This document shows positions 56,467 to 56,618 of a DNA stretch of 64,000 nucleotides, piece by piece. Source of the DNA: Qipengyuania marisflavi (GTDB lineage Bacteria; Pseudomonadota; Alphaproteobacteria; Sphingomonadales; Sphingomonadaceae); NCBI RefSeq assembly GCF_005884405.1, contig NZ_VCAO01000002.1:186001-250000 (forward strand). Direction: 5' to 3'. The notes under the pieces are model-generated. The model did no database searches, had not been told where the DNA came from, and saw nothing but the letters and a program-made list of their open reading frames with translations. The position numbers and the translations under genes were made by a program. Within the stretch, counting starts at the first letter, position 1, and every line of letters starts with the position of its first letter.

Positions 56467-56618
56467 GAGTCCGTTCGGTCACACCGCATCATGTTGAGTC
56501 CGGCGAATCTGTGTGGACTCAACATCTTGTGGGGGACTCCTTTCGTTCTCTCCACGAAACCCGCCCGGCCGAACCGCCGCTTTGCAATAGAAGCTTGACC
56601 CTTTTGCCGCTTGGACTC
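56467..56618 (+). promoter_or_regulatory. GANTC cluster and inverted repeat upstream of ccrM
   Basis: Six GANTC sites lie at 56467, 56496, 56505, 56516, 56535 and 56614. Three of them are inside an inverted repeat: ATGTTGAGTCC (56491-56501) and GGACTCAACAT (56515-56525), each arm with one site and a third in the 13-nt loop. CcrM-type autoregulation through promoter methylation is known in Caulobacter. Confidence 0.7.

Follow-up and report, generated by a model that had tools for sequence, protein, structure and literature searches.

The window analysed here, a stretch of 64,000 nucleotides from the genome of Qipengyuania marisflavi, contains ccrM, the gene of a GANTC adenine methyltransferase, at 56652-57788 (an alternative start is possible at 56646) and, farther upstream, rnhB, which encodes ribonuclease HII (54830-55525, start approximate). 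Both genes and all features described below are given on the forward strand. The product of the methylase gene scores 603 bits against the NCBIfam CcrM profile, under the strict cut-off of 830 of that model, matches Pfam N6_N4_Mtase and RAMA, and aligns with the C. crescentus CcrM 6pbd at 498 bits; the gene is thus a genuine ccrM, as had been proposed from its sequence. A plasmid search for the methylase returned distant matches only. In two congeners, short fragments that copy part of the ccrM 3' end lie near the intact gene (G015:C1:161512-161657 and G036:C1:889960-890136).

Six GANTC sites (at 56467, 56496, 56505, 56516, 56535 and 56614) occur within 152 bp upstream of ccrM, exactly as the original prediction had noted. 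Its estimate that about 0.6 would be expected by chance correctly identified an excess, and the figure itself proved conservative. Because GANTC is rare in the window, with 74 sites versus 245 in dinucleotide shuffles (an approximately threefold avoidance), only 0.18 sites are expected per 152 bp, and the Poisson probability of the cluster is about 4e-8, uncorrected for the choice of its place after the fact. GANTC triplets whose gaps do not exceed 30 bp number only 17 in the whole 2.67-Mb genome, and three overlapping ones fall within this cluster. The genome has one other dense cluster, an intergenic stretch of 105 bp with five GATTC/GAATC sites (C4:6501-6605, that is, L274:2002-2106), upstream of an open reading frame that we take to resemble a polysaccharide flippase.

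Alignment of the ccrM upstream region in relatives, which the original prediction had named as the way in which it could be refuted, showed that the sites are conserved. Among 36 aligned congeners, GANTC is present at 56467 and 56614 in all 36, at 56516 in 34, at 56496 in 32, at 56535 in 25 and at 56505 in 18. A seventh position, 56603, which lies 11 bp upstream of the 56614 site as its partner, carries GANTC in 26/36 congeners with a fully variable central base (A/C/G/T) and has been lost in the species of the window. In 60 further families of the class, the 250 bp that precede ccrM hold 199 sites in total, where the local density predicts 32. The cluster is thus conserved in the genus and about sixfold enriched before ccrM across Alphaproteobacteria, which makes a methylation input to the control region likely. 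The two outer sites are GAGTC at 56467-56471, invariant in 36/36 congeners and followed by a conserved GCcACACC, and GACTC at 56535-56539, followed by a conserved TTtcGTTCt. The strongly conserved blocks to which they belong, GAGTCnt....GCcACACC (56467-56483) and GGaCtCcTTtcGTTCt (56534-56551), resemble no recognised site.

Predicted NrdR boxes upstream of ccrM

Three of the GANTC sites lie in a perfect 11-bp inverted repeat with a 13-nt loop (56491-56525), in which ATGTTGAGTCC (56491-56501) is complementary to GGACTCAACAT (56515-56525); there is one site in each arm, and a GAATC in the loop (56502-56514). All of this had been described correctly. The complementarity of the arms of this repeat, which the original prediction read as part of a methylation-sensitive switch, is however not maintained in relatives: the pair 56493/56523 is complementary in just 7/36, and no compensatory changes that would preserve arm pairing were found among the 36. 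A structural switch acting as a hairpin or cruciform was therefore rejected.

When the arms are extended outward, two 16-bp palindromes appear, CCGCATCATGTTGAGT (56484-56499) and ACTCAACATCTTGTGG (56517-56532), and the columns that are invariant in relatives coincide with these palindromes. It is very probable that the arms are the inner halves of two predicted NrdR boxes. The inner half of box 1 carries GAGTC (56496-56500) and that of box 2 carries GACTC (56516-56520), immediately 3' of box 2 follows the outer site at 56535, and the 17-bp spacer between the boxes (56500-56516) holds the loop site GAATC (56505-56509). NrdR requires pairs of boxes, for which spacers of 14-17 bp are functional (PMC12051234); with 14-17 (or 24-27) bp adopted from that work as the permitted range, the spacer is 17 bp in the window and in 36/36 congeners with a pair. 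Both 16-mers are close to ACACWATATATWGTGT and have C4 and G13, contacts whose mutation lowers NrdR binding at least 50-fold (PMC9110341, with its position numbering converted to that of the 16-mer). Invariant in the 36 congeners are C56487, A56491, T56492, G56496 and G56498 in box 1, and C56518, C56520, A56524, T56525, T56527 and G56529 in box 2, which correspond to NrdR positions C4, A8, T9 and G13 together with C2 and T11 in box 2 and G15 in box 1. Selection on the sites is thus visible in relatives, and the genome encodes NrdR itself (TIGR00244, 168.7 bits, above the cut-off).

A scoring matrix was trained solely on nrdA boxes of the families f2-f8, picked with a literature-like consensus. 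It assigns 11.1 bits to box 1 and 17.7 bits to box 2; box 1 is thus the weaker one, and in Sphingomonas the left box is often degenerate. The pair reaches 28.8, the best value in the 64 kb, where the next independent pair scores 9.1; control DNA (about 0.8 Mb) has a maximum of about 16, and the nrdA promoters of the genus, which lie outside the training set, mostly reach 18-22. The ccrM upstream region exceeds the 99th percentile of the controls in 36/37 congeners, 76/80 named Sphingomonadaceae, 18/22 genomes of other families of the order and 31/60 other families. Matrices with permuted columns matched the class value in 0/300 cases and the order value in 1/300 (a near-identical permutation). 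In the genus alone, a permuted matrix can reach 0.97 by chance; the members of the genus share ancestry and are not independent, so the genus taken by itself is weak evidence, and it is the order and class sets that carry the weight.

Genome-wide, the ccrM box is the sole perfect match to a palindromic NrdR-like pattern, and the few one-mismatch matches include a box that precedes the nrdA start codon by 184 bp. A loose two-box pattern has 51 matching pairs in the genome, of which the ccrM pair scores highest; the bare pattern is too loose to serve as a unique identifier.

In other families of the order, the ccrM boxes are located inside the 3' end of rnhB, and they leave a trace in its codons. 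In the families f2-f8, the leucine codon is CTA in 21/21 cases (background 3.7%), the glycine codon is GGA in 21/21 (background 10.7%), and GCA is used at 18/18 alanines (background 14.6%). In ten Sphingomonadaceae in which rnhB ends 309-640 bp from ccrM, this freezing is gone, with CTA in 0/10 and GGA in 2/10. Synonymous codons are thus frozen only where the boxes fall within rnhB, which argues for selection on the DNA and for boxes that belong with ccrM rather than with rnhB; conservation of the RnhB peptide was rejected as the origin of the boxes at the level of the order. Two genomes of family f2, G037 and G060, were tried as a natural experiment for the boxes; neither gene gave a match in either of them, which points to the loss of ccrM and its neighbour rnhB together.

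The ccrM pair resembles the NrdR pairs of the nrdAB, nrdRJ and nrdHIEF operons in its 16-bp palindromes, in C4/G13, in a spacer within the 14-17 bp range and in the presence of an encoded NrdR, and the sequences of its boxes are near those of nrdA boxes from this order, for example CCACAAGATGTTGGGG. In contrast to the ribonucleotide reductase operons, the gene downstream encodes a DNA methyltransferase, and the boxes hold GANTC in their inner half-sites.

The predicted core promoter

A scan with a strict sigma-70 consensus found no promoter upstream of ccrM. Spacing and conservation nevertheless point to a predicted -35 element TTGACC (56595-56600), of which CTTGAC is invariant in 36/36 congeners, and, 17 nt after it, a weak predicted -10 element CATCCT (56618-56623). 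The spacer contains the CcrM site GACTC (56614-56618), whose last base, C56618, begins the predicted -10 element. The site is present in 36/36 congeners with C or T as its central base; G, A, T and C stay while N varies, the pattern that selection on the CcrM site itself would produce. The arrangement TTGACn12-17GANTC occurs before ccrM in 38/38 congeners and in 22/60 other families, versus a background of about 0.002 per 250 bp, and a GANTC site placed behind TTGAC in the promoter spacer is found again across the class, at every level of kinship tested. As a general promoter class of the genome, this arrangement was rejected, since it is not enriched (11 matches versus 16 for the reversed control). 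GcrA binds methylated GANTC (PMC3667746), and gcrA is present in the genome (PF07750, above the cut-off). The region thus resembles the GcrA/CcrM promoters of Caulobacter (ctrA P1, mipZ, podJ), which are sigma-70-like and have GANTC between -35 and -10. It differs from them in the tandem GANTC sites 11-12 bp apart that are conserved before ccrM itself, one of them lost in the species of the window, and in the attached NrdR boxes and DnaA box.

The DnaA box, a perfect TGTGGATAA at 56623-56631, lies over the predicted transcription start. Such a box is found before ccrM in 38/38 congeners and 44/80 members of the family, and in none of the remaining parts of the congener loci. In the Sphingomonas loci L110-L130, a perfect DnaA box is located elsewhere, inside the NrdR/GANTC element. 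Such boxes seem to be retained upstream of ccrM even as individual copies turn over. A CtrA half-site TTAACCAT was found before ccrM in 16/38 congeners, a feature shared with the CtrA-activated promoter of the same gene in Caulobacter and Rhizobiales; in contrast to that promoter, the window contains no CtrA-like site and has the DnaA box instead. This fits the pattern noted by Brilli et al. 2010 (PMC2877005), in which DnaA sites occur where there are no CtrA sites.

The predicted -35 element begins about 62 bp downstream of the NrdR boxes, whereas the boxes of ribonucleotide reductase genes overlap that element. At such a distance the pair could not simply occlude this promoter, which leaves it uncertain in which direction control runs; repression is a default assumption taken from NrdR biology and not a result of this analysis. 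Across the order, the distance from the end of box 2 to TTGAC is mostly 52, 62-63, 73-74 or 95-96 bp, which corresponds to whole helical turns. The distances in 26 genomes of other families are also phased (P of about 0.001 in a jitter test devised after seeing the data), with a box-to-promoter phase that differs by half a turn from that of this order. The phased spacing favours contact or a loop with the polymerase over simple occlusion.

GANTC sites within the NrdR half-sites

Among named members of the family, the two inner half-sites carry an in-register GANTC in 57/74 and 64/74 pairs and the outer halves in 0/74. The adenines that CcrM would be predicted to methylate are at box positions 1 and 3 (opposite strand), adjoining C4. 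Order relatives keep the boxes with GANTC in 1/36 inner halves. Loss of an inner GANTC often leaves a box with canonical NrdR letters, as in L011 (GCACAGCATGTGGTGG), L032 (ACGCTAGATGTCGTGG), L030 and L033. Since the boxes outlive the GANTC sites, the NrdR constraint appears to be both older and stronger, with GANTC as an addition to it. Box 1 of the nrdA promoter (genome C12:439804-439853) has its outer half fused to GATTC in 19/19 congeners, and thus a second NrdR target also carries a CcrM site.

These patterns bear on whether methylation matters within the boxes. It is a plausible possibility, short of a probable one, that GANTC in the arms is a by-product that arises when the third base of an NrdR half-site changes from A to T beside a G, and that methylation has no effect there. 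The near absence of GANTC from the boxes of the order relatives speaks for this view, as does the conservation of the A and T of the arm sites at 92-97% where the NrdR positions are invariant. The contrast between inner and outer halves, maintained despite the avoidance of GANTC in the window, and the GANTC-bearing nrdA box of the genus speak against it. Tentatively, and with somewhat more doubt, the boxes could instead form a composite NrdR/CcrM element, in which CcrM methylates NrdR half-sites and one complex reads both the dATP sensor and the state of hemimethylation.

The interpretation originally given, that the GANTC cluster and the inverted repeat are a methylation-sensitive switch of ccrM, read by GcrA or another m6A-sensitive protein without any role of NrdR, is unlikely for the region as a whole and turned out to be half right. 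It accounts for GANTC at fixed places with a variable N at the core promoter, for the excess of sites in the 60 families and for the presence of GcrA; in Caulobacter, moreover, CcrM most probably has an effect on its own transcription (PMC3973325), and GANTC between -35 and -10 marks promoters timed in the cell cycle (PMC4287350). It is likely to be true for the core promoter site at 56614. However, it gives no account of the AT-n-T-n-G columns, invariant both between the GANTC sites and outside them, of the matches to the nrdA matrix, of the frozen rnhB codons or of the boxes that outlive GANTC, and the inverted repeat at its centre is not maintained. A protein site defined by GANTC alone was rejected for the repeat, since the invariant columns fit NrdR and the boxes persist without GANTC. 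An RNA hairpin or attenuator in the ccrM leader is very improbable and was rejected: the stretch folds well as RNA (-27.1 kcal/mol, z -3.8), but two facing palindromes fold on each other regardless, the pairing is not conserved, no terminator was found, and the stretch lies upstream of the predicted transcription start.

Proposed control of ccrM

Taken together, the region upstream of ccrM is with high probability a composite control region that would place ccrM in the NrdR regulon, with inputs of GANTC (via GcrA) and DnaA at the core promoter. Its upstream part would consist of the tandem boxes at 56484-56499 and 56517-56532, the inverted repeat being the facing halves of these palindromes. 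NrdR represses ribonucleotide reductase and acts as a sensor of ATP and dATP. With dATP abundant in relation to DNA synthesis, it would most likely bind the pair and lower the transcription of ccrM, and methylase synthesis would thereby follow the use of DNA precursors. At the core promoter, TTGAC-17 bp-CATCCT, the CcrM site in the spacer would probably be read by GcrA, next to the putative DnaA box at the start point. In the family of the window, m6A in the inner halves would adjoin the key C4/G13 pairs, and CcrM methylation may therefore change the binding of NrdR and close a feedback loop; this methylation sensitivity is hypothetical.

Published work also holds points against ccrM as an NrdR target. 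NrdR has been described as specific for ribonucleotide reductase genes, and the main text of Leyn et al. 2016 (PMC5343134) does not mention a methyltransferase. No paper joining NrdR with the control of ccrM was found in the open literature, subscription papers and RegPrecise lying outside the search. A different but suggestive link comes from Acinetobacter, where NrdR may interact with the adenine methyltransferase AamA, according to a report cited in PMC12176259. In C. crescentus, an nrdR deletion strain has been made (PMC12186491).

The composite region described above, if it operates as proposed, would be of consequence for the alphaproteobacterial cell cycle. The timing of ccrM is a central step of that cycle, for which the inputs so far are CtrA, GcrA and DnaA. 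Through a conserved pair of NrdR boxes upstream of ccrM, nucleotide supply would join them and the reach of NrdR would extend past ribonucleotide reductase, and the conserved arrangement of sites suggests that DNA precursor supply and DNA methylation are wired together. If the composite NrdR/CcrM element is also true, precursor supply, replication and epigenetic state would be coupled in an ancient circuit of Alphaproteobacteria.
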